Part shown: piece after piece, positions 44,354 through 59,600 of the stretch
Layout of the letters: each line of letters starts with the position of its first letter
Numbering within the stretch: position 1 is the first letter of the stretch
Assembly: GCA_032622095.1 (NCBI GenBank)
Contig: CP136064.1
Span: forward strand, 186,106,209-186,170,208
DNA from: Siphonodentalium dalli
Taxonomy: Eukaryota > Mollusca > Scaphopoda > Gadilida > Siphonodentaliidae
DNA length: 64,000 nt
Direction of reading: 5' to 3'
Program-made: the position numbers and the translations under genes
Notes under the pieces: model-generated
Told to the model about the DNA's origin: nothing
What the model saw: the letters and a program-made list of their open reading frames with translations, nothing else
Databases searched by the model: none

Positions 44354-44488
44354 CTACATAACGTGAATGAACGCGGACGTTGCCGTGGACCTGTGTCCGG
44401 TTGTCTCTGCGATCAACTGTTCATCCACGTTACCCCGATACATTCTGGTCGCGGCTGCACTCCGGAGAGAATGATTGGTGTAACATCC
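44354..44488 (-). CDS. Tyrosine recombinase catalytic segment, Crypton type
   Basis: The minus-strand frame reads TNHSLRSAAATRMYRGNVD, then EQLIAETTGHRST. This is box II of tyrosine recombinases: the HxxR catalytic pair (HSLR) and, about 30 residues later, the GH of GHRS. The NHSLR...DEQLI..TGHRS form is characteristic of Crypton transposons and the proteins derived from them (ZMYM2/3/4, QRICH1, KIAA1958). The enzyme class cuts and joins DNA through a tyrosine; the nucleophilic Tyr should follow GHRS but is not seen, and the frame leaves the family pattern and stops 10 codons later. A stop codon lies just upstream, at an AG that could be a weak acceptor. The segment is either one exon or a decayed copy. 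Confidence 0.7.
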   Translation of the reverse strand, partial: GCYTNHSLRSAAATRMYRGNVDEQLIAETTGHRSTATSAFIHVM

Positions 44489-44732
44489 TTATAGGCCTGC
44501 CTCGGTGCACACCTTAGATTTCATAGTGTTAAGCTCATTTTTGCCAATTGGTTGCTTGGAGAACCATACATCTGTTTTCGGATACAGTATAGGTCTCAAG
44601 TAGAAGGAATTGCAGGTCCAATCTTTAGGGCTGAATAAAAATAAAAAAATAAAAAAAATTAACAGACATGATTTTGTGATATTTTCTTAGCTAATCAGCC
44701 AGACAAATGTGGACTGTTTCCATTTTGTTAAC
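44489..44732. other. Spacer beside recombinase segment
   Basis: No match to the missing recombinase box I was found. It ends with an A-rich stretch near 44640. Confidence 0.45.
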
Positions 44733-46505: not shown

Positions 46506-47028
46506 TAGATCATGGCTAGATCAATCGCGACTCTGGCTGACGCCCGTAGAGATCATATTCCACCAGTACAAAACCTGGAACTTTTCGAAGTTTTGACAGG
46601 GAACCTTATAAGTTTGAAAAAGTAACACTGGGAATATATTTCTTATTTATTACCTGTTCCTTAATAATGTACTTCACTGCAGGTGAATGTCCCAACTTGA
46701 AATTTCACGATTTAAGTGACTTTGTGAGTGATTTTGATTTTCGTCGCTTACAATTATATGGAATTACTGGGTAATTAAATCAATGTTTATGGCCCACAAA
46801 AGTCACAGAAAAGCATTCAATCTCGAGCTGGGACCACCCCCTAATATGAAGTAGATTATGGAGGAACATGTATTAACAAACAGCTGTTTTCCTTGCCGTA
46901 ATTGTTCAATGTTACAAAGTTCCCATCAGTCAGAACGGGTTAGAACATAAAAAGGTTACCAGGTTTTGTACTGGTGGAATATGATCTCTACGGGCGTTAG
47001 CCAGATTAGAAATCCACGGCATGATCTA
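46506..47028. mobile_element. TAGATCATGCC family, copy at 46.5 kb
   Basis: Starts TAGATCATGGC and ends GGCATGATCTA. Subterminal arms GCCCGTAGAGATCATATTCC and CCAGTACAAAACCTGG are matched by complements at the right. This is the clearest full copy (523 bp) of the family. No frame. Confidence 0.75.
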
Positions 47029-47299
47029 ACGTAACATATTATGACTGTTCAATGATATACCTTCTTTGGTTCCCGGACAACTGCTTCAAACATATATTTT
47101 GTCCCGGAGATTTAAATGGAAATCTCCATTAGAAATTGGTCACTTACCTCCCACTTAACTTGTGCGAACATTAGTTTATTTATTAAGGAAAGGCACTGGT
47201 TGTACAATTTGGCCTACACATTACAAAAGGACCCTTCCTTGTTTCCAAGTCGCGACAATTGCTCCATACAACAAAGAATATAATTCAACAAAATAATGT

Positions 47300-47689
47300 A
47301 CTTAAGAAGGCGCCCCATTCGTGAATTTTCAAGAAAATCTCAATTTCAAACTATCAGTTTGAAGGAAAAATTCATTGTCCCTTATAACCAATGCTATATG
47401 CTAACAATTATTTACCCTCACAACATGAGAGATATTTTTTCGAACTATGTAAAAATAATGAGGTTTAACAAAACAGAATGTTTGAGGCATAGGTAGGTCG
47501 ATAGAGTTTGACAGGAAATATTTGCAAAAAAACACTGAATTATCTAGACTATGAACCCAACTATAGAGTAACATGCTCAGTCTACCATCTGAAATCATGA
47601 CTGCCTGCGTGAAAATAATTTTCCCCTTCAAATTGATAGTTTGAAATTGAGATGTTTTGGTAATTCACGAATGAGGCGCATCCTTAAGT
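47300..47689. mobile_element. MITE with CACTTAAG ends
   Basis: ACTTAAGAAGGCGCCCCATTC at the left is complementary, with a few changes, to GAATGAGGCGCATCCTTAAGT at the right. Pairing extends through AATTTCAAACTATCA and TGATAGTTTGAAATT. About 390 bp, no transposase. Confidence 0.7.
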
Positions 47690-48331
47690 GACTCATTCGT
47701 TATCTCATTTTCAAATTGAGCAGTGTCCATAATTAATGGGGAGGTCAAGTGACCAATTTTGAATAGGGATTTCCATGCAAAGCTGCGGAACAATTGTTAC
47801 AGAGTTGCACATATTTCTGAGTGTGACTTGGTATGGTATTGGAAACAACAGGTATATGTCTGTCGAGTCCGCTCGGAACTTGTCAAGTGACCAATTTTTA
47901 ATGGGGATTTCCATGCAAATCTCAGGAGCAAAAGTTATGTATGAAGCAGTTGTTCTGGAATCAAAGCAGGCATATCATTGAACAGTCATAACATTTAACT
48001 GGCAGATGCGCTAGTTAAATAATAAAATTTGGCAATAAATACATTTTTGAGAATTCTTTTCTGTAATTACCATCACATGATCTACATTTGAAAAATCAAT
48101 ATAAAATTCAAATATAAGTACACCAACATTATATAATGGAACAAATTCCAAGCTGACCCGCCAGAAAACTAACTGCTGTTTCCAATACCACATCAAGTCA
48201 CACTCAGAAGTATGTACAACTCTAACAGTCTAACTATTGCTTCGCAGATTTGCATGGAAATCCCCATTCAAAATGGATCACTTGACCTCCCCTTAATTCA
48301 GTATGCATAAAATTGGATACTTACCAGTGGT

Positions 48332-48882
48332 TTACGTAAGCTTCGAAAATCCTGACGGGACATCTCTCGGTAGAATCTGCCCTTTCATAGGCATCACAGG
48401 TTTTCCTTGTAATTTCCCTATGTTCCCATGATCCTCGGATTCGAATTCTATAACGTTGGCCCTCTTTGGCGTTGTTCCGATTCCCGCTGCTGCACGTTCC
48501 TTCATCGTGACACCAAGAGTGTCTTGTAGTTGTTTAAAGTAGGTGTCTGTTAGCAGTTTATAGTCCTTTCCTTTGACGGCCATGTGACTTTGGATGGACA
48601 TAAAACTTTCATATAAACAATTGCCGGGGAACTCTGAACCGTCCTCCTTTTGTACCTCGCAAACGAAGCGAGCGAGCGAGTAGGACAGCTCACCCATAGA
48701 CATCTCCAGAAGAACAGGACGAATAATACTAAGTTGGTCACCAGAATTTTTGGCAAGCACATTGCGGTTTTCCCGCCATTGTTCAAATAAGTTGATCGCC
48801 CATCTCTGTTTGCTTAGTGTGCTTTTGGACAATCGTTTTGTACCGGCGCTCGTGATCATTAACGCCACCGGTGTACTCTGTC
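48332..48882 (-). CDS. Crypton-type recombinase, N-terminal domain exon
   Basis: From a probable acceptor (TTTTCAAG at 48883-48890, or CAG at 48878-48880) the frame gives about 180 residues. They include KQRWAINLFEQWRENRN, LSYSLARFVCEVQKEDGSEF, PGNCLYESFMSIQSHM, QLQDTLGVTMKERAAAG and IGTTPKRAN. This is the helical N-terminal domain shared by Crypton recombinases and their derivatives (QRICH1, ZMYM2-4, KIAA1958), which precedes the catalytic domain. The family pattern fades after EFESEDHGNIGKL and the frame stops at 48332, near a GTAAAC that could be a donor. The open frame extends upstream into helitron satellite, but those residues are not part of the gene. It could be a live transposon, a domesticated gene or a remnant. 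The catalytic box II lies 3.8 kb downstream on the same strand. Confidence 0.7.
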
Positions 48883-49079
48883 CTTGAAAATATAATAACC
48901 ACTGGTCCAATGGGGGGTTATGGGGGATTAGGTCGATGTAAAAGTAAAAATGGGTCGCTTTAAAAGCTGTAGTCTTACCCCGAATGCTCAATAAAATAGT
49001 CCGACACAGATTAGCACATGTGCTGATATTGATAATAACTACACCGTTTGGAAAGCATGCGACCGTGTGGTAATCAAAG
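48883..49079. other. Probable intron sequence
   Basis: Lies between the helitron-like array and the recombinase exon. It contains the pyrimidine-poor acceptor region on the minus strand and no family match. Confidence 0.4.
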
Positions 49080-49647
49080 ATGGATTTCGACGAAATTTGA
49101 TACTTAGGGGTACTTTTGTCCGGGGAGTGTTTTGGACGGGTCAAATCGTGACCCCGACCTGACCTTGACCTTTAAAACAGTCAATTCAAAGTCAAATCGG
49201 GTAAAGCGGACGGATTTCGACGAAATTTGATACCTAGGGTTATTTTTGTCCGGAAAGTGTTTTGGACGGGTCAAATGGTGACCCGACCTGACCTTGACCT
49301 TCAAAATGGTCAATTCAAGGTCAAATCGGGTAAAACGGACGGATTTCGACGAAATTTTATACCTAGGGTTACCTTTGTCCGGGGAGTGTTTTGGACGGGT
49401 AAAATCGTGACCCCCACCTGACCTTGACCTTCAAAATTGTCAATTCAAGGTCAAATCGGGTAAAACGGACGGATTTCGACGAAATTTGATACCTAGGGAT
49501 ACTTTTCTCCGGGGAGTGTTTTGGACGGGTCAAATCATGACCCCGACCTGACCTTGACTTTCAAAATAGTCAATTCAAGGTCAAATCGCGCCTTTCGCTG
49601 GAAAGGAGATGGGAAATAGCCTGGACGATGTCGGGCCCACCAGCTAG
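49080..49647 (+). mobile_element. Helitron-like satellite copy with CTAG end
   Basis: Four to five units of about 121 bp contain GGATTTCGACGAAATTTGAT, GTGTTTTGGACGGGTCAAAT, CCTGACCTTGACCTTC and TCAATTCAAGGTCAAATCG. The copy ends with the hairpin GCCTGGACGATGTCGGGC and then CTAG before T, the helitron 3' structure. No TC-type 5' end was found, so it is 5'-truncated or joined to other sequence. It lies in the probable intron upstream of the recombinase exon. Confidence 0.65.
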
Positions 49648-49955
49648 TGTAATAAAAAGCGAGACAGCTTAATTGGAGAATGTAATGTATAACACGAGAA
49701 ACGGGAAAACTTGATATGTGGAAGTATCCAAATTTCCCACATGGAATTTGAAAGCTCGTTATACTTCAATGTTTTAACATTGAAGGATATTGTAATTCTT
49801 CTGGCTTTTATTCTTCTTTTTATTATTATTATTCCGATAACATGCTTATATCTCAGGAACGACTGGACCGATTCACCTGCTGTTTTCGGCTTCAGTATAT
49901 AACTTTGGAATATCTGGTAAAATAGCCTATTGAGAATTTCGTCCGACCTTGACCT
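49648..49955. other. Spacer, no gene recognised
   Basis: AT-rich; a TTATTATTATTATTCC microsatellite is present near 49820. Confidence 0.45.
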
Positions 49956-49961
49956 TCGGAG

Positions 49962-50940
49962 TTATCGCCATTTTCTTGATTTTTGGGTTTTTTTTCGCGC
50001 CACTAAAACGACTTGCAAAATCTAGGTTTGAGTTCTTATATCGTCAAAACGGCTTTGCCAATTTATTTGAATTTTCGGACCTCCATAGCCATTGAGCATA
50101 GGCAGTCGAGGAACTAACAGGAAATTTTGTATGACCTTGACCTTAGGAAACAACGCTCTTTATATGTTTTATTGTTGTTAGCGTATCTCCTCCAAAACGG
50201 CTTGAGATACGGAATCCAGAAGGGCTTGAGATATTGTGTTGGGATTTTTTGCATTATGTGCATCAACGTCTGCGTTCTATAATGATATATACAGTTTACG
50301 GATTTCTCTTCCGGTTTGGGAGCACGGGCGTGTGGGTATGCATCTCAAAACTATTTTGGCGCAGATTTTGATGAAATTTGGTGGATATAATCTTTAGTTG
50401 CCGCTGATCACTATTCCGCTCGAATTTGTTTAATCGGACTTAATCTTCTGGGGTTATGGCTGCTTTAAAACCTGATTTTTTGGGGTTTTCGCACCACCAG
50501 AATGACTTGCAAAATGTAAAATCGAGGTTTATTTCTTATATCGTCGAAACGGCTTGGCCAATTGATTTGTATTTTTGTACCCGCATAGCCATTGAGCATA
50601 TACGCAGTCGATGCACTGATAGGGAATTTCGTCTGTCTTTGACCTTAGAAAAGAACGCTCTTCATATGTTTTATTATTGTTAACGTATCTTCTCCGAAAC
50701 GGCTTGAGATATCGAGTTCGGACTTTTTTCATTATTTGCATCTGTATGTGTGTTATAAAATACGCTCTTTATATGGAATCCAGAACGGCTTGAGATATTG
50801 AGTTGGGACTTTTTGCATTATGTGCATCAAACTCTGCGTTCCATAATGATATATATATATATAGGTTACGGATTTCACTTCCGATTTGGGAGAACTGGCG
50901 TGTGGGTATGTATCTCAATATGTTTTTGGTGTATATTTTG
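49962..50940 (+). repeat. Tandem duplication, two units of about 490 bp
   Basis: Units start near 49962 and 50453. Shared parts include GACTTGCAAAAT, CATAGCCATTGAGCATA, TATGTTTTATT and ACGGCTTGAGATA. Within and after the second unit the GTTACGGATTTC...TTCCG...GTGTGGGTATG segment repeats. Variants of AACGCTCTTTAT occur in each unit. Confidence 0.7.
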
Positions 50941-51232
50941 ATGAAATTTGGTTGGCAGAATCTGTGGTTGCCGATTATTACTATGATCTATAGTATCACC
51001 ATACTCATATGTCTCTGCTGACAACATACGCTTTATCAGATGACACAATTTTCCGTCATTGGCGAACATTGAAGTATCGAAATTGCCGTGCAATTTCAGT
51101 TTCATTCTAGTTTATATTATAATTATATTATAATTTATATTTATGGCTAATAATATGATCTTGGTGGCGTTATCATTTCTGACTATGGTTTTCTTGTTTC
51201 ATCTGACACCGGCTGTCTGAATCGTTGGGGTT
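50941..51232. other. Spacer, no gene recognised
   Basis: AT-rich. A segment near 51140-51200 (AATATGATCT...GGCG...ACTATGGTTTTCTTG) resembles 41130-41175. No gene. Confidence 0.45.
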
Positions 51233-51382
51233 TTAATATAGCACATGGTTTGCTTTCCTGTACATGTGTAGTACCCGCAACAGACTGTAGAGGCATGGAT
51301 GGCGGGTTTCCACTGGTTGTTGTGTGGCTGATTCTGCGGCTTCCAACGCTTTAATTAATTCTTGGTCGATGCTGTTATTTGG
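51233..51382 (-). CDS. N-terminal coding exon, 3' part after insertion
   Basis: Continues the frame of 53869-53994 across the fold-back element. After the duplicated ProAsnAsn codons it reads SIDQELIKALEAAESATQQ and then PVETRHPC, staying open to a TAA at 51233. Where the exon really ends is not clear; candidate donors are weak (for example GTACTA after CGG near 51275). The acidic, helical character and the position 2.4 kb upstream of the recombinase N-terminal domain on the same strand suggest that it is the beginning of that gene. No family match was recognised in this part itself. Confidence 0.45.
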   Translation of the reverse strand, partial: PNNSIDQELIKALEAAESATQQPVETRHPCLYSLLRVLHMYRKANHVLY

Positions 51383-53868
51383 GGGTGTGTCTTTTTACCG
51401 GATTCCGGATCCCGGATTTCGACCCGGATTTAGGTGTCTTTTTACCGGATTTCGATTCGGATTCGGGTATGAATTTCATGCTTGTTTTATCACACATTTA
51501 ACCCATTAACAGCCGTTTCTGACACGCGGAAACTGGTTAGGAGGTGAGATTAAACCAGTATAGGGTTGTCGTGCTCATTCAACCCGATTAATCGTATTTA
51601 AAGGTACATATCGTGCCCGGATCAGCATACTTCTTATTTTTTCATATAGACACGGAGGTTGGATTGATTTTACGTGATCATGATGGCATTTAAGGGAACA
51701 CACCATGTCCGGATCCGAATTAATTATCTCGTAATTATTGATCATATTTAAAGGTAGATATCATGTCCGGATCCGGTTTTTTTCTATCGCTTTTTTTCCA
51801 TATAAATTATCGTCTTTTTGATATATTAAATGTCACGTGGAACAAAGTTATAAGTTGATTTTGAGACGTTATACTAGGCTGTTGGATTGATTTCACGGAA
51901 TGATTATCGCATTTAAAGGTATACACACCATGTGCGGAACCGAATTAATTTCCACGTATTTACTGATAATATTTAAAGGTACAGATTATGCCCGGATCCG
52001 GATTTTTCTTCTTATAAAGTAATGCTTATTTAATACAATAAATGTAAACTGAGTCGCGTGGAACTAGGTTATAGATGTTGATGTTTAGATCAGATCATTC
52101 CCGGATTCGGATACGAATAGTTCTTTTCTATTTCATATAAATAGTCAAGTATTTAATACATTAAATGGCAGATGAACCACGCGGAACTCAGTTTATTTGG
52201 AATCGGTGAACATGGCGCTTGGATTGATTTCACGCGAGAATGAGCCCATTTAAAGACAAACTTTATGCCCGGATCTGGATCCGGATTTTATGTGTCTTTT
52301 TCTAATTTCGACCCGAACCCTGATCTCAATTTTATGTTTATTATAACCCATGTTTAACACATTAAAAGACATTTCAGACCCAGAAAACATGACACAGGTT
52401 GCGTTTAACAGTAATATCATTGGGATTGAAATAAATTGACTTGCTTTTGTGAAGATTTTTTGTTCTCCAGCCCACAAAAAAACCTGGTGCAGTTTAAATG
52501 GTTTATTGTTTTAGTTCGATTATAAACGATTATATTTGTGATACTAGTTATATTTAAGCCGGTTTAAGTGAGATAGATGTACGACTTGTATTAACGTTTT
52601 ATGTCACGACGCCCGAATCGCTTAATACAAGTCGTACATCTATCTCACTTAAACCGGCTTAAATATCGAATTTACAATAGTAATACTACTAGTATCACAA
52701 ATATAATAGTTTATAATCGAACTAAACCAATGAACCATTTAAACTGCACCAGGTTTTTTTGTGGGCTGGAGAACAAAAAATCTTCACAAAAGCAAGTAAA
52801 TTTATTTCAATCCCAATGATATTACTGTTAAACGCAACCTGTGCCATGTTTTCGCGGGTCTGAAATGTCTTTTAATGTGTTAAACATGGGTTATAATAAA
52901 CATAAAATTGAGATCAGGGTTCGGGTCGAAATTAGAAAAAGACACATAAAATCCGGATCCAGATCCGGGCATAAAGTTTGTCTGTAAATGGGCTCATTCT
53001 CGCGTGAAATCAATCCAAGCGCCATGTTCAACGTTTCCAAATAAACTGAGTTCCGCGTGGCTCAGCTGCCATTTAATGTATTAAATACTTGACTATTTAT
53101 ATGAAATAGAAAAGAACTATTCGTATTCGAATCCGGGAATGATCTGATCTAAACATCAACATCTATAACCTAGTTCCACGCGACTCAGTTTACATTTATT
53201 GTATTAAATAAGCATTACTTTATAAGAAGAAAAATCCGGATCCGGGCATAATCTGTACCTTTAAATATTATCAGTAAATACGTGGAAATTAATTAATTCG
53301 GTTCCGCACATGGTGTGTACCTTTAAATGCGATAATCATTCCGTGAAATCAATCCAACAGCCTAGTATAACGTCTCAAAATCAACTTATAACTTTGTTCC
53401 ACGTGACATTTAATATATCAAAAAGACGATAATTTATATGGAAAAAAAGAGAGCGAAAAAAACCGGATCCGGACATGATATCTACCTTTAAATATGATCA
53501 ATAATTACGAGATAATTAATTCGGATCCGGACATGGTGTGTTCCCTTAAATGCCATCATGATCACGTAAAATCAATCCAACCGCCGTGTCTATATGAAAA
53601 ATAAGAAGTATGCTGATCCGGGCACGATATGTACCTTTAAATACGATTAATCGGGTTGAATGAGCACGACAGCCCTATATTGGTTTAATCTCACCTCCTA
53701 ACCAGTTTCCGCGTGTCAGAAACGGATTTTAATGGGTTAAATGTGTGATAAAACAAGCATGAAATTCATACAAGAATCCGGGTCGAAATCCGGTAAAAAG
53801 ACACCTAAATCCGGGTCGAAATCCGGGATCCGGAATCCGGAATCCGGTAAAAAGACACACCCCTACCC
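51383..53868. mobile_element. 2.5 kb fold-back transposon with 1.2 kb arms
   Basis: The left arm (51383-52594) is the near-complete reverse complement of the right arm (52622-53868), leaving a 27 base turn. GTTATTTGG is present directly outside both ends (51374-51382 and 53869-53877). The ends read GGGTGTGTCTTTTTACCGG at the left and, in complement, GGGTAGGGGTGTGTC at the right. An alternative reading, TAGGGGTG ends with an imperfect 8 bp duplication, would fit hAT elements. No transposase is encoded. Both arms repeat an ATTTAAAGGTA ... CCGGATCCGG unit about seven times. The element interrupts an open coding exon on the minus strand. Confidence 0.85.
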
Positions 53869-53994
53869 GTTATTTGGTCCGTAGTCCTCTTCGAGCGCCA
53901 ACATCACGTCGTGTAGCAACTCCTGTGTAGTAATGGCAGAGGACGCCGAACTCAATCCGTCTCCATTGTCCTCCATATACCGCGATTGGGTCAT
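53869..53994 (-). CDS. N-terminal coding exon, 5' part before insertion
   Basis: An ATG at 53992-53994 opens a frame of 42 codons (MTQSRYMEDNGDGL, then LSSASSAITTQELLHDVML and EEDYGPNN) that reaches exactly the target duplication. An in-frame TAA lies five codons upstream, so this ATG is a credible start. GC content is higher than in the surroundings. The frame is continuous with 51233-51382 if the 2.5 kb element and one copy of the duplication are left out. As it stands, translation would enter the element and stop at a TAG within a few codons. Function unknown; probably the N-terminus of the Crypton-type protein. Confidence 0.5.
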
Positions 53995-54279
53995 AGTCGA
54001 TTTAAATTAATCTTCGGACTCCATAGTCAAACAGACCAAACTTCAAATAATATGAAAAATCAATTGACAGCTCCGCGGGTTCGACATTAAAGCGCCCGTG
54101 CGTAACTTTGATTTGGATATTCACAATAATAGCTATGATGTTGGTGGGTTCTGCTGATTTAGATATGATATTAAGAAAATGTACCGTCATTGTTTCTATA
54201 TTTATTTGTCATGTTCCCGATGTAAACTGATGGGCTGTTCTGAGTTATTTGAGAAAAAGCTAGTGTATGTATGGCATAT
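53995..54279. other. 5' flank of the coding exon
   Basis: May hold the promoter or 5' untranslated region of the minus-strand gene; no clear TATA or initiator was recognised. Confidence 0.35.
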
Positions 54280-54604
54280 TTAAAGGAATACTGCATGTAT
54301 ACTAGATCGGGCCATTTATATGACCATCTCCTTTTATACTCAACAGAATATATGCAACAAATGAATGAATTTGAGCCACGACATTAGTACAAAATACACT
54401 CATGTGATCTACGAAAGATACCAAACAACATGGTAATTATAATGAAAATGAATTAATGACTGGAGTCATTATAATTAAAACACGATTGTATTTTGCACTA
54501 ATCCATGGTTCAAATTCATTCATTTGTTGCATATATTCTGTTGAGTATAAAAGGAGATGATCCCATAAATGTCCGGATTCAGTGTACATTATTTACCCCT
54601 TCAA
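54280..54604. mobile_element. TTAA-ended MITE, full copy 2
   Basis: Inverted arms contain CATCTCCTTTTATACTCAAC and its complement and ATGCAACAAATGAATGAATT and its complement, as at 39013-39343. The outer TTAA is intact at the left and altered at the right. Confidence 0.6.
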
Positions 54605-55264
54605 GAACATATATATATTTTTTTTTAAATGCTTTAATTTATATGAATGCGATTTTTTGTTGCAAAACAATGGAAATAGCATTTCGATTATGGTCGGTTT
54701 GCAAACACCATCACAGCCATGTTAAAAATACATGAAACAATATATATTCTTGAATATTTTATGGAGATAATGACGTTTTCTCAATTCGTTGAGAATAGCC
54801 AAAGGCCGCGGAAATTAGAACTGCATGGAGGATATATAAGAACGGTACATTATCTTAACAACACCCGTTTTTGCCACTCAATCATAGCACGTAAGTAGGA
54901 CCAACCAACATCATAGCAAATTAGCAGGACTATTCAACTATAGTGGGTGATTAGTCTGAGACACGAGTCTGATGTCTATGCCTTGTGTACGTTGGCACAC
55001 GCGGTTAGTGATTTATAAACAGGGAAACTGACACACAATATATCATTTACTTGAACTAACTTCCAAGCCCAGAAAAAGACAACCATCAAATCGAAATAAC
55101 AACAGCTTTGTTTACGTGAATATGTAACAATTTCATACAATCTCAACGGCTCGGCCATTTCCGCTTTCACACAGCTGTTTCCATGGAAATTCTCCAATAA
55201 ATAGACACCAATCACACCATATAACTTTAATCGTGCAATTTTAAGTTTGGACCTTCATCGACAG
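54605..55264. other. Intergenic, no gene recognised
   Basis: 54880-54960 (CCAACATCATAGCAAATTAG and neighbours) resembles part of block B near 6355-6385. No gene. Confidence 0.45.
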
Positions 55265-55433
55265 TGAATTACACCACTTAGGAACAATAAATAACTAAGA
55301 AATATATTCCCAGCGTTACTTTTTGAACTTTATAAGGTTCCCTGTCAAAACTTCAAAAAGTTCCCAGGTAATGTATTGGTGGAATGTGATTTCAACGGAC
55401 GTTAGCCAGAGAAGAGATTGTTGGCATGATCTA
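55265..55433. mobile_element. TAGATCATGCC family, half copy
   Basis: Right arm only: ACTTTATAAGGTTCCCTGTC, then AAAAGTTCCCAGGT, GTTAGCCAGAGAAG and terminal GGCATGATCTA. Confidence 0.6.
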
Positions 55434-55813
55434 TATGAGCGTCCATGCATTAGTTTTCAAAAGTAGAAGTTAATAAACAGCGCTCTAAATTCTGGTCGTT
55501 TTTTGTACTGGTTTTCAACGTGGAACTGATGGCAACATTTGTGGAATTTCTCAATACATGTGCCATGCATTTTAAAAATGATGGTGCTTGTAAATATACA
55601 TGTATTTCCTCTTTTCTTTTGTGTTAAACTGAAAATTATATCAGGAAAGCTTGATCAATTTGGTGCCAAACCACTGCTAATCTGAAGCCGATTACATGCA
55701 TTTACGGAACGTGTTATTTAAGAAATTATAATTACATCTTATTGCAATGTAGATGGATAACGTATATAGTTTCCTCTACGTGGGTGATTGGTCTGTGTTA
55801 ATATGATACATAT
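55434..55813. other. Spacer, no gene recognised
   Basis: No feature assigned. Confidence 0.45.
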
Positions 55814-56275
55814 TAGATCATGCCACGAATCTCTACTCTGGCTGACGCTCGCATAGAGGTAATAAAACCTGGGCACTTTTTGAAGTTTTTACAGGAAACT
55901 TTAAAAAGACGAAAACTAACGCGGGAAATATATACCTTAGTTACTACCTGTACCGTATAATAATAGGCGAAGGTCCTACCTTAAAAGTACACGATTTAAG
56001 TGACTTTGTGAGCGATTTTGCGCTTACAATTTCATGTATACACATAATTTCTACTGGTTAATTAATTAATTCAATGTTTATTGGAATATATAGGCTCACA
56101 AAATCACAGAAAAGCATGCCACACCAGGCTGCAACCACCCCCTAATGTGAAGTAGATTATTGTGGAACAAGTATTAACAGAGAAATATATCCCCTACCTT
56201 GTTTGTTCAATGTTATAAAGTTGATCAAAACATCAAAAAGTTTCCAGGTTTTGTACTGGTGGAATATCCAGATAA
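55814..56275. mobile_element. TAGATCATGCC family, copy at 55.8 kb
   Basis: Starts TAGATCATGCCACGAATC with CTACTCTGGCTGACGC following. The right arm has CCAGGTTTTGTACTGGTGGA but lacks the outer TAGATC end. Its right half is shared with block A (3565-3785). Confidence 0.6.
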
Positions 56276-57125
56276 ATATATGCTGGGATATGCTAATTAA
56301 ACTTGACCTTTCTCTTCTCGCAGGCAGGACAGGAAGAACAGACTCTGACAGATGAGCAAATAGCTGGTTAGTATTATATGTATGATATATCTCCGAAACA
56401 CAATATTTTTCAAATATTAGCCAATACGTATAACTTGTAACGTACATATGTTGTCATTGCCAACGTAGGTCTCCTGACTTACGTGGCCATTTCGCCTACA
56501 CGTACACGGTCAAAGCGTTTGGAAGTTTTGTACCAAAACGTGAAGCATATACGAAACTTTTAGCGAAGAGGACCAATCCAGTCTAGTCGTCTTATAACCT
56601 AATCAGCGATTGGCCTACCCATAAATTTTTTAATTTGATTGAAGCCGATTAAGCGTGTTAACTATTATTTACTGTAGGTTTGGCGCCGTAAAATATCTGA
56701 CTTTTCGCGTGCACATGCGCATTTTCATAGCAACACCATAGTAACACACGTTACAGGTTACATGTACATATACGTGTGACTGAACAACGCTGATAGGCAG
56801 GTTCCCGTTCAAAAGTGTTTTTTTTTTTGCCAAAAAACTTCAGTAATTTCGTGGTTCCATTTCAGTCAGTCACTTAGAGTTCGCGTCCGATAAATAGTTG
56901 CATTTGGAACGCCGATACATGTAGTTGAGTCATGACAAACGTATTGTGTACGATCAGACATATGCGATATAATGCATGAATTGAAATATCTGGCATGTCA
57001 GGATAGATTGAATTAATGATCGTTATTGGTATATTTGCTTGACGAAAAAGATCTGGTTTATATGTTTGGGGACGGGACGATGATCTGCCATGGCATGTGA
57101 TTAACATTATATAGTAAATACGCGC
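56040..57125 (-). repeat. Duplicated block A', first part
   Basis: Reverse complement of about 2450-3785, lacking the 252 bp insertion present there. The LINE interrupts the block after 57125. Confidence 0.8.
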
Positions 57126-57138
57126 CTGTTCGGGTTAC
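57126..57138. repeat. LINE target-site duplication, left copy
   Basis: CTGTTCGGGTTAC, identical to 59200-59212. The paralogous block A has a single equivalent (GTAACCCGACCAT at 2444-2456). Confidence 0.9.
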
Positions 57139-59199
57139 TTTAAACATATTTTAATGTATTTAGAAACAAAATATACATAGGGATCAGGGCACAAGTTACA
57201 AAACTTACAAACTTGCCCCTCTCCTAATACAATCATGGAACATACATAAAAATACATAGCAGATATAGCAAACTGTTTATAAAGAAGAGTGCAGAGTGTG
57301 TGTGCTGCGGATGTCGGGTTTCCATCTGTATTCCAATCTCGGTTATGAAGAAAACGCTAGAACTCAGTGAGTTGAAAGATGAATAGCGAAATTTACCATA
57401 CATGGGTTTGTTCAAAACGCTCTGTTTTAGCTATAAAAGATTGAGTAATGCGGAAAAGAGTAGTGTTCTTTTGATTTGATATACCTTTTACCCCATATAA
57501 GAAATGATTTGCTTCTAATGATTGAAAGCCATTAATACTTAAATTTCGGTAAAAGTCAATTCTCTGATCTACAAATAAAGGGCAAACATGAAAATAGTGA
57601 TTGGCGTCTTCAATGTCTAAGTTACAGGGGCATATAGGCGAATCTGATATGTGATTATCAAACATATCCGAACGGAGATCACTACACTGATTCCGAATTT
57701 TACAGTGTATTGTATTAATTTTCCTTTTTCCTGTATAAAAATAAGAGGGTGGTTTTATTATTGGATCTATAATCCCTAAATTGGCTTTGAAATCGGAAAT
57801 AGAGGTTGCATTGATTACATACACAGGTAATTTGTTCCATTCCAGAACAACAGATGGGAGAAATGACTGTTTAAAATGCTCAGTGTTAGCGAAATAGGAA
57901 TAAAATTTATTTGGAAATCTAAGATTATAATCCGATCGTTCTCTGGAGCGTGCCGGTAGGAGATATGTCAGATACAAAGGGGCGTCTTCATTGATAATTC
58001 TGTAAATTGCTTGCAAATGGCGATGTTGCCTACGCCTGTGTAGTGTCCGCCAACCTACCTCAAGCCATAACTTGTTAAGTGATACTGAACGATTTAGGCC
58101 GGTTACGATTCTAGCGGCGTCTTTATGTATTCGGTCGAGTTTTTCCAATAAGTAATCGGGTGCTGAATCCCATACGACGTCAGCATAATCCAAAATAGGA
58201 AGGATATACGCATTGTAAATTTTTTCGAGTGTCTTTCTATCCAGTTCGTTTTTAAATTTCCTCAATTGTGATAGTCTAGAGGCAGCTTTGTTTGCTGTGT
58301 ATTCTATTTGTTTGTTCCATTTTAAGTTTGATTGAAATTCAAGGCCAAGGTGCTTATGCGATTCGTTAAATGAAATAGTTTCGTCCTGGAATATTAAATC
58401 TGGGGAATTATCTTGAGGCACGAATGAGAAGGATATTGCCTTGGTTTTCTTGGGATTGAACGAAACTAACCAGTTGTCTGCCCATAGACTGACCCTTTTG
58501 AGGTCCTCATTTAGTTCTGATTGTAGGATGTTAAGATTGAAGTGAGAAGCTGTGAGACATGTGTCATCAGCATACATTCTAACAGTTGATGTGAGGTTAT
58601 CTGGTATGTCATTAATGTATATTAAAAATAGGAAAGGCCCAAGGATAGATCCTTGGGGAACACCCGCTGTGATGGTTTCAAAATCAGAATAAGTGTTATT
58701 GATTCGGACCCTTTGCTTCCTGTTAGTGAGATAGTCCTCCAGCCATTTAGAAAGCGACCCTGTTATCCCATACGCGGTAGTTTTGGCAATCAACCCTCTG
58801 TGCCAGACTCTCTCGAAGGCTTTAGAGATATCACAAAATACTGAACAAGTGTATAGGCCTTTGTCGAGTGTCTGACACAGCTGGTGATAAAGATCAATCA
58901 TTTGGAATGTAGTGCTGTGTTTCGGAACGAAACCCGACTGATTTTGAAATAGGAGTTTATTCTCATCGAAAAAGGACGAGATTCTCTTTAGAACTAACTT
59001 TTCAAGAATTTTACCCAGGCATGGTAGAAGGGAAATTGGTCGGTAATTAGCGCTATCTGCGGAATCTCCATTTTTAAAAATAGGAATCACATTGGCTTTC
59101 TTCCACTGTGATGGGAACTTTCCCGTTTGTAGAGATTTTTTAAAAATTAAGAAAAGAGGGTGGGCTATAGCGTTAGCCGTGCCGTGGAGCATTTTTGGA
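57139..59199 (-). mobile_element. 5'-truncated LINE retrotransposon
   Basis: A 2,061 bp insertion between 13 bp duplications inside block A'. It encodes reverse transcriptase and a C-terminal Cys/His region, followed by about 254 bp of 3' untranslated sequence that ends ATTAAAATATGTTTAAA without a long poly(A). The endonuclease domain and the 5' end are missing, as is usual after incomplete reverse transcription. The domain order and motifs suit the CR1/Jockey side of LINEs; the exact clade cannot be fixed by eye. Confidence 0.9.
57393..59199 (-). CDS. LINE reverse transcriptase, 5'-truncated ORF2
   Basis: About 600 residues are open without a stop. Visible reverse transcriptase motifs, numbered from the ATG at 59243: NYRPISLLP (66-74), FCDISKAFERVWH with the catalytic Asp (136-148), AGVPQGSILGP (193-203) and YADD, the catalytic pair (224-227). 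The thumb and connection follow, then a CPC...H...C motif (538-554) of the type found at the C-terminus of many non-LTR elements. The protein would copy its own RNA at a nicked target. The longest open frame starts outside the element: the first 14 codons come from block A' and the target duplication. An intact frame suggests a young insertion, but without endonuclease and promoter it is not expected to move on its own. Confidence 0.92.
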
Positions 59200-59212
59200 C
59201 TGTTCGGGTTAC
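59200..59212. repeat. LINE target-site duplication, right copy
   Basis: CTGTTCGGGTTAC, exact partner of 57126-57138. Confidence 0.9.
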
Positions 59213-59600
59213 AATAAACAAGAATACAATTTCGATCTTCCACATAGTTTCATCGTACGACCAGTGCCTCGCACACACACGCACACACACACACACACCC
59301 TCACACCCTCTCACACACACATCGTGCAACGTGACATTAATAGGGCGCTTTCTGTCATATTTGCACAAGTTGTGAAAAAAAGTATGAAACTTGGCACATA
59401 TGTTCCTTGGACGATCCTGATCATTTTCAGATATAGACCCCATCGAGATGGGTCTTTCGTTAGCAAAGGTTGCTGGGCAACTACCCAAAATAATAAAATG
59501 TCTCTACATGTATGTGGATGGTTTACAACATTTAATTCGAACAGTAGTAGTTTCTAATTGCATATTGGAGGTTAAGTTGTGACACATGATAACATACAAT
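59213..59600 (-). repeat. Duplicated block A', second part
   Basis: Reverse complement of about 2094-2443, resuming right after the LINE. A CA-rich microsatellite has grown within this copy. Short frames on both strands here are repeat translations. Confidence 0.75.
59269..59325 (+). repeat. CA microsatellite
   Basis: Imperfect CACACA run with CCCTC interruptions; block A has only a short remnant at the same place. Confidence 0.85.

Follow-up and report, generated by a model that had tools for sequence, protein, structure and literature searches.

The window analyzed here, a 64,000-nucleotide stretch of DNA from Siphonodentalium dalli, very probably contains a nested insertion, in which a fold-back element lies within a broken copy of a Crypton-like transposon and was in place before a local duplication of the region. 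According to the mechanism that we propose, a non-autonomous Mutator-like fold-back would have inserted by cut-and-paste through a 9-bp staggered cut, and its target would have been one copy of a multi-copy Crypton-like tyrosine-recombinase transposon. The fold-back and its host would then have been duplicated as a pair, as part of a segment that aligns in pieces over ~26 kb, to an inverted position 1.39 Mb away, and the two duplicates would have gathered separate lesions since the duplication. These are ordinary nested transposons and, as far as we know, they settle no open question. The locus cleanly combines paralogs that have the empty site, a 9-bp duplication and a local duplication that came later, and it could help to date and define a fold-back family of the S. 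dalli genome.

The fold-back element and the frame across its site

The features of the window are located as follows.

44369..44632, minus strand: phage-integrase-like C-terminal remnant, located by tblastn with the C-terminal frame of L021 (a paralog on C5)
48321..48871, minus strand: body of the putative Crypton-like copy, QRICH1 and then the remaining DUF3504 (Pfam and paralog comparison)
48872..51196, no strand: second insertion, ~2.3 kb, edges approximate
51197..51373, minus strand: coding stretch past the insertion site, carrying a 1-nt deletion absent from L017 (the duplicate of the region) and L011-L016 (six diverged loci)
51374..51382, no strand: left target-site duplication, GTTATTTGG, 9 bp, from the sequence
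51383..53868, no strand: fold-back element, 2,486 bp, non-autonomous, arms of ~1.16 kb
53869..53877, no strand: right target-site duplication, GTTATTTGG, 9 bp, from the sequence
53878..54134, minus strand: 5' part of the putative Crypton-like copy, with an upstream Met at 54024, the ATG at 53994 and the codons up to the insertion site

GTTATTTGG is present on both sides of the element with 2,486 bp between, which bears out the fold-back element and the flanking duplication that an earlier note on this DNA described. The inverted-repeat arms are internally repetitive and exhibit 24 differences over 1,162 aligned positions; because one of the arms entered this comparison with 30 additional bases, ~30 of the 36 gap positions are artefactual. 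The left end of the element is 5'-GGGTGTGTCTTTTTACCGG, six extra bases are found at the right end, and no ORF of at least 100 aa is present in the element (51383-53868). A separate short inverted repeat, whose 84-bp arms are 89% complementary and spaced by 127 bases, is located at 54295-54589, and a stretch that resembles it occurs at ~38.0-38.2 kb.

On the minus strand, the repeat reads CCAAATAAC and supplies codons 40-42 (P-N-N) from the ATG at 53994, in agreement with the earlier description of Pro-Asn-Asn and of a duplication reached at codon 42. The frame as sequenced continues with Gly at codon 43 and stops at codon 44, inside the element, also as described. Removal of the element and one repeat leaves the minus-strand frame open for 46 more codons before a stop. 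The claim of more than 40 codons in the same phase across the joined site therefore stands for the open frame, but only the first 23 of these codons follow the family frame. At 23 codons beyond the repeat, one A is missing from the window, which reads AC-CCG compared with ACACCG in L011-L016 and L017, and the remaining 23 codons are out of frame. The joined frame is beyond chance because other places in the genome have the same sequence and lack the element. The case also illustrates how a frame that is open once the site is emptied can be misread: the target here is most likely a transposon relic.

The conserved frame starts 10 codons upstream of the ATG at 53994 and places MESEDEFKST before MTQ. 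Its codon 6 is TAA in the window and L017 and Glu in five other copies (L018, two in L019, L020 and L021). The upstream start is MESEDEFKSTMT in L018 and L020, MESDDEFKSTMT in L021 and TTG, LESDDEFKSTMT, in both L019 copies.

Could the element be spliced out as an intron? The minus-strand sites GG/GTAGGG and AACAG/ would join P-N-N-G to I-D-Q-E-L, and this computed join keeps the phase. However, the acceptor displays no clear pyrimidine tract by eye, splicing gains just ~23 in-frame codons ahead of the frameshift, and the upstream stop, the frameshift, the 2.3-kb insertion and the DUF3504 deletion persist in the spliced product. We consider such splicing very improbable, and the earlier suggestion of an intron or an alternative N-terminus of a working gene is not supported, given these four lesions. 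A host-gene exon was likewise set aside as a candidate on the same lesions and on the recombinase domains of the copy. It is scarcely credible that the fold-back ends serve as splice sites in a mobile intron-like manner and that the locus makes a short N-terminal Crypton recombinase peptide despite its lesions; if true, such a peptide could, for instance, regulate Crypton copies that are still living.

Identity and decay of the host sequence

What is the sequence that the fold-back interrupts? In the frames of L021, Pfam recognizes DUF3504 (PF12012, 1.4e-18), QRICH1 (PF25561, 2.1e-17) and Phage_integrase (PF00589, 2.2e-11), and hence the tyrosine recombinase coding region (DUF3504/Phage_integrase) that marks a Crypton. 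By eye, the L021 frames also seem to keep HSLR, GHR and Tyr motifs, candidate members of the catalytic tetrad R-H-R-Y of Cryptons. Pfam finds QRICH1 in the window copy (E 3.8e-15, ~48500-48811, in the frame 48332-49144), and the DUF3504 and integrase remnants of the window were found by tblastn. The integrase remnant has TSAF where L021 has IRTY and contains an in-frame stop. At the other end, the homology to the fetched paralogs ends at ~54134.

Relatives of these frames are found both among proteins and throughout the genome. According to precomputed annotation, DUF3504 is present in 58 of 59 protein relatives and all three domains are present in 32; where an organism is named for a relative, it is a sea star, a mussel or one of two gastropods. 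The only solved relative that was found is QRICH1 (9hjt; E 3.3e-8). In the genome, at least 120 related matches are present, many in long open frames and with near-equal scores; the best 118 of 979 candidates were scored, with several per locus in places. The N-terminal frame of L021 (105 aa) gives nothing significant against the 59 relatives by phmmer (best E 0.17) and one weak match by BLASTP (P0009, E 0.019 in this small set), and thus the homology on the N-terminal side rests on the paralogs in the genome.

PMC3212892 traces DUF3504 to Crypton recombinases and records animal Cryptons from six phyla, Mollusca among them. We name the host a Crypton-like transposon on the basis of its recombinase domains, its protein relatives, its genome copies and this reported origin of DUF3504. 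Most likely, the host sequence represents a dead copy of such a transposon; it is not a demonstrated host gene. Thus, the earlier proposal of a split coding exon is retained as far as the formerly coding stretch is concerned and is given up for the gene. The copy number, domains and relatives of the subfamily suggest that it was mobile. Like animal Cryptons (CryptonA) and DUF3504 descendants, the family has DUF3504 and phage-integrase domains, and like Cryptons, it has many related copies per genome, some degraded and some open; the difference is that the window copy is broken by a stop, indels, two insertions and a DUF3504 deletion.

The main rival to the Crypton-like transposon identity is that the host belongs to a domesticated DUF3504 gene family (KIAA1958/ZMYM/QRICH1-like), enlarged by duplication, of which the window copy would be a pseudogene. 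The closest named proteins are ZMYM2-like, ZMYM3-like and KIAA1958-like, and the tandem copies on C8 and C9 could represent segmental spread. However, the C-terminal frame of L021 matches Phage_integrase and keeps the three motifs (by eye), whereas most of the tetrad is reportedly missing from domesticated genes (PMC3212892). Moreover, the abundance of genome-wide matches with long open frames and near-equal scores also argues against an expanded gene family. We regard this reading as unlikely and favor a Crypton-like transposon. More distant Crypton-like families, with 525-aa and ~659-aa open frames and many near-equal copies, are found at C5:72.82-72.83 Mb and in other places and are possibly still active.

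The window copy has been damaged at several points besides the fold-back site. The 2.3-kb insertion is common to the window and L017 and is absent from 4/4 paralogs compared (L018-L021). The part of it that adjoins 51197 is a high-copy repeat of ~70 bases, and its two edges have CCGGTG plus scattered bases in common. The DUF3504 deletion of the window and L017 removes ~0.2 kb at ~48424-48435 (net size of 188 to 214 bases, judged from the L018-L021 coordinates) and shifts the frame beyond. We infer the order of the fold-back insertion relative to these other common lesions. Each duplicate also has lesions of its own: L017 retains the A that is missing from the window and has two extra bases a little further on. 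The N-terminal frame breaks before QRICH1 in all seven copies examined (the window, L017, L018, two in L019, L020 and L021), and this set thus includes no intact member of the closest Crypton subfamily; therefore, this subfamily looks old. The QRICH1 stretch is open, with no stop, in the window and L017, and the C5 copy has an open body of 343 aa. These open stretches speak against complete decay.

Empty sites, the duplicate and the age of the insertion

When the left flank (51133-51383) was compared with the genome, at least 41 matches were obtained, for which the best 40 of 576 candidates were scored, and 32 of them span only the first 65-80 bases or so, which constitute a high-copy repeat. 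Nine places match the flank further, namely the window, a near-identical place at C4:187.55 Mb and seven diverged places at C4:215.03 Mb, C9 (two), C8 (three) and C5. At six diverged loci, L011-L016, the sequences that flank the element adjoin each other and the element is missing. The locus at C4:215.03 Mb (L011) is a clean empty site with a single 9-bp repeat and identities of 93.5% and 91.7% on the two sides, L012-L016 have small indels near the empty site, and the C5 copy (L021) is also without the fold-back element. The uninterrupted site, which the earlier note expected in a related species, is thus present in paralogs within the genome. Between the window and L011, 29 of 440 positions differ, and in the remaining five paralogs the number rises to 59 or 60, out of 432 to 440, as counted in an alignment whose emptied window row omits the flank base 53878.

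The near-identical place (L017) is a duplicate in inverted orientation, located on the same chromosome at a distance of 1.39 Mb, and carries the fold-back element at the same base as the window. It aligns to the window in one piece from 46929 to 56833, with identities of 99.42% in the 5' flank, 99.56% in the element and 99.05% in the 3' flank. Further duplicate pieces with 98.1 to 98.9% identity extend to 36966 and 63518, giving ~26 kb overall. Given the arm differences, the divergence from L011 and the common site in L017, the insertion most likely occurred after the split from an L011-like copy and before the local duplication.

These observations bear on a recent null allele, in which a working host gene would be interrupted in one individual or population only, as the earlier note had suggested. 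The coding-like flanks, which are in phase, and the existence of uninterrupted paralogs would fit such an allele. However, the 99% identical duplicate carries the insertion at the same base, 17 of the 24 arm differences are common to both duplicates, and so are three other lesions (the stop, the 2.3-kb insertion and the DUF3504 deletion). Even a second haplotype put in the wrong position would mean that the element is present in both haplotypes; on either reading of the duplicate, segmental duplication or misplaced haplotype, more than one copy has the insertion. The insertion most likely predates the duplication and is therefore not a recent null allele, for which we see hardly any chance, and we retain the nested insertion that is older than the duplication.

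A non-LTR-type retroelement is found at 57126-59212 between 13-bp repeats, GTAACCCGAACAG. It contains RVT_1 (E 3e-35) in a minus-strand ORF at 57393-59243 and is probably 5'-truncated, given that the ORF starts in the flank. The duplicate (L030 ~9,700) has an empty site for this retroelement, which is thus probably younger than the duplication.

The fold-back family in the genome

The fold-back element belongs to a dispersed family. The genome (2.2 Gb, nine contigs) was searched with a 101-base element end, and all 40 scored candidates (the best 40 of 539 first-look candidates) match and are spread over all nine contigs; among these 40 matches are the two ends of a single element as well as the window and its duplicate. 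Direct repeats of 9-11 bases are found at 8/8 independent loci with both ends read (the window and L022-L028), the best repeats being 9, 9, 9, 9, 10, 11, 9 and 9 bases long, where more than one boundary is possible in L023, L025 and L026, L028 fits 8 or 9, and additional bases are found at one fold-back end in the window and L022. Both ends were also read in L017, which as the duplicate of the window stands outside the eight loci; L029, whose right outer end was not found, was left out of the count, and L001-L008 provided one end only. With the left end fixed at GGGTGTGTC, the repeat is 9 bases long in 7/8 loci and 7 in L023, and the right end starts with ACCC in L024-L027, is one base off in L022 and L028 and is six off in the window.

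The repeat length and architecture suggest that the family is likely Mutator-type and would have been moved by a Mutator-type transposase, since the 8-10-bp (typically 9-bp) target duplication of this type is found across copies at 8/8 loci. Most fold-backs are seemingly Mutator members, and Tetris, a fold-back of Drosophila virilis, generates 8-10-bp target duplications, as stated in PMC4079207. The family here resembles Tetris, as portrayed there, in its long, internally repetitive inverted arms and in its lack of evident coding capacity, and its 9-bp target duplications compare with the 8-10-bp ones of Tetris. Tm1 of root-knot nematodes (PMC3169594) is another of the closest fold-back systems. 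In this comparison with Tetris and Tm1, which concerns architecture, the family described here differs in its ends, GGGTGTGTC.

The end motifs are spaced by 2.2 to 4.0 kb across the family copies. The bodies of L022-L028 and the window contain a single ORF of more than 100 aa, and no transposase was found in them. This ORF, 388 aa long and located inside the fold-back copy L023, is reverse transcriptase-like by eye and probably represents a nested retroelement.
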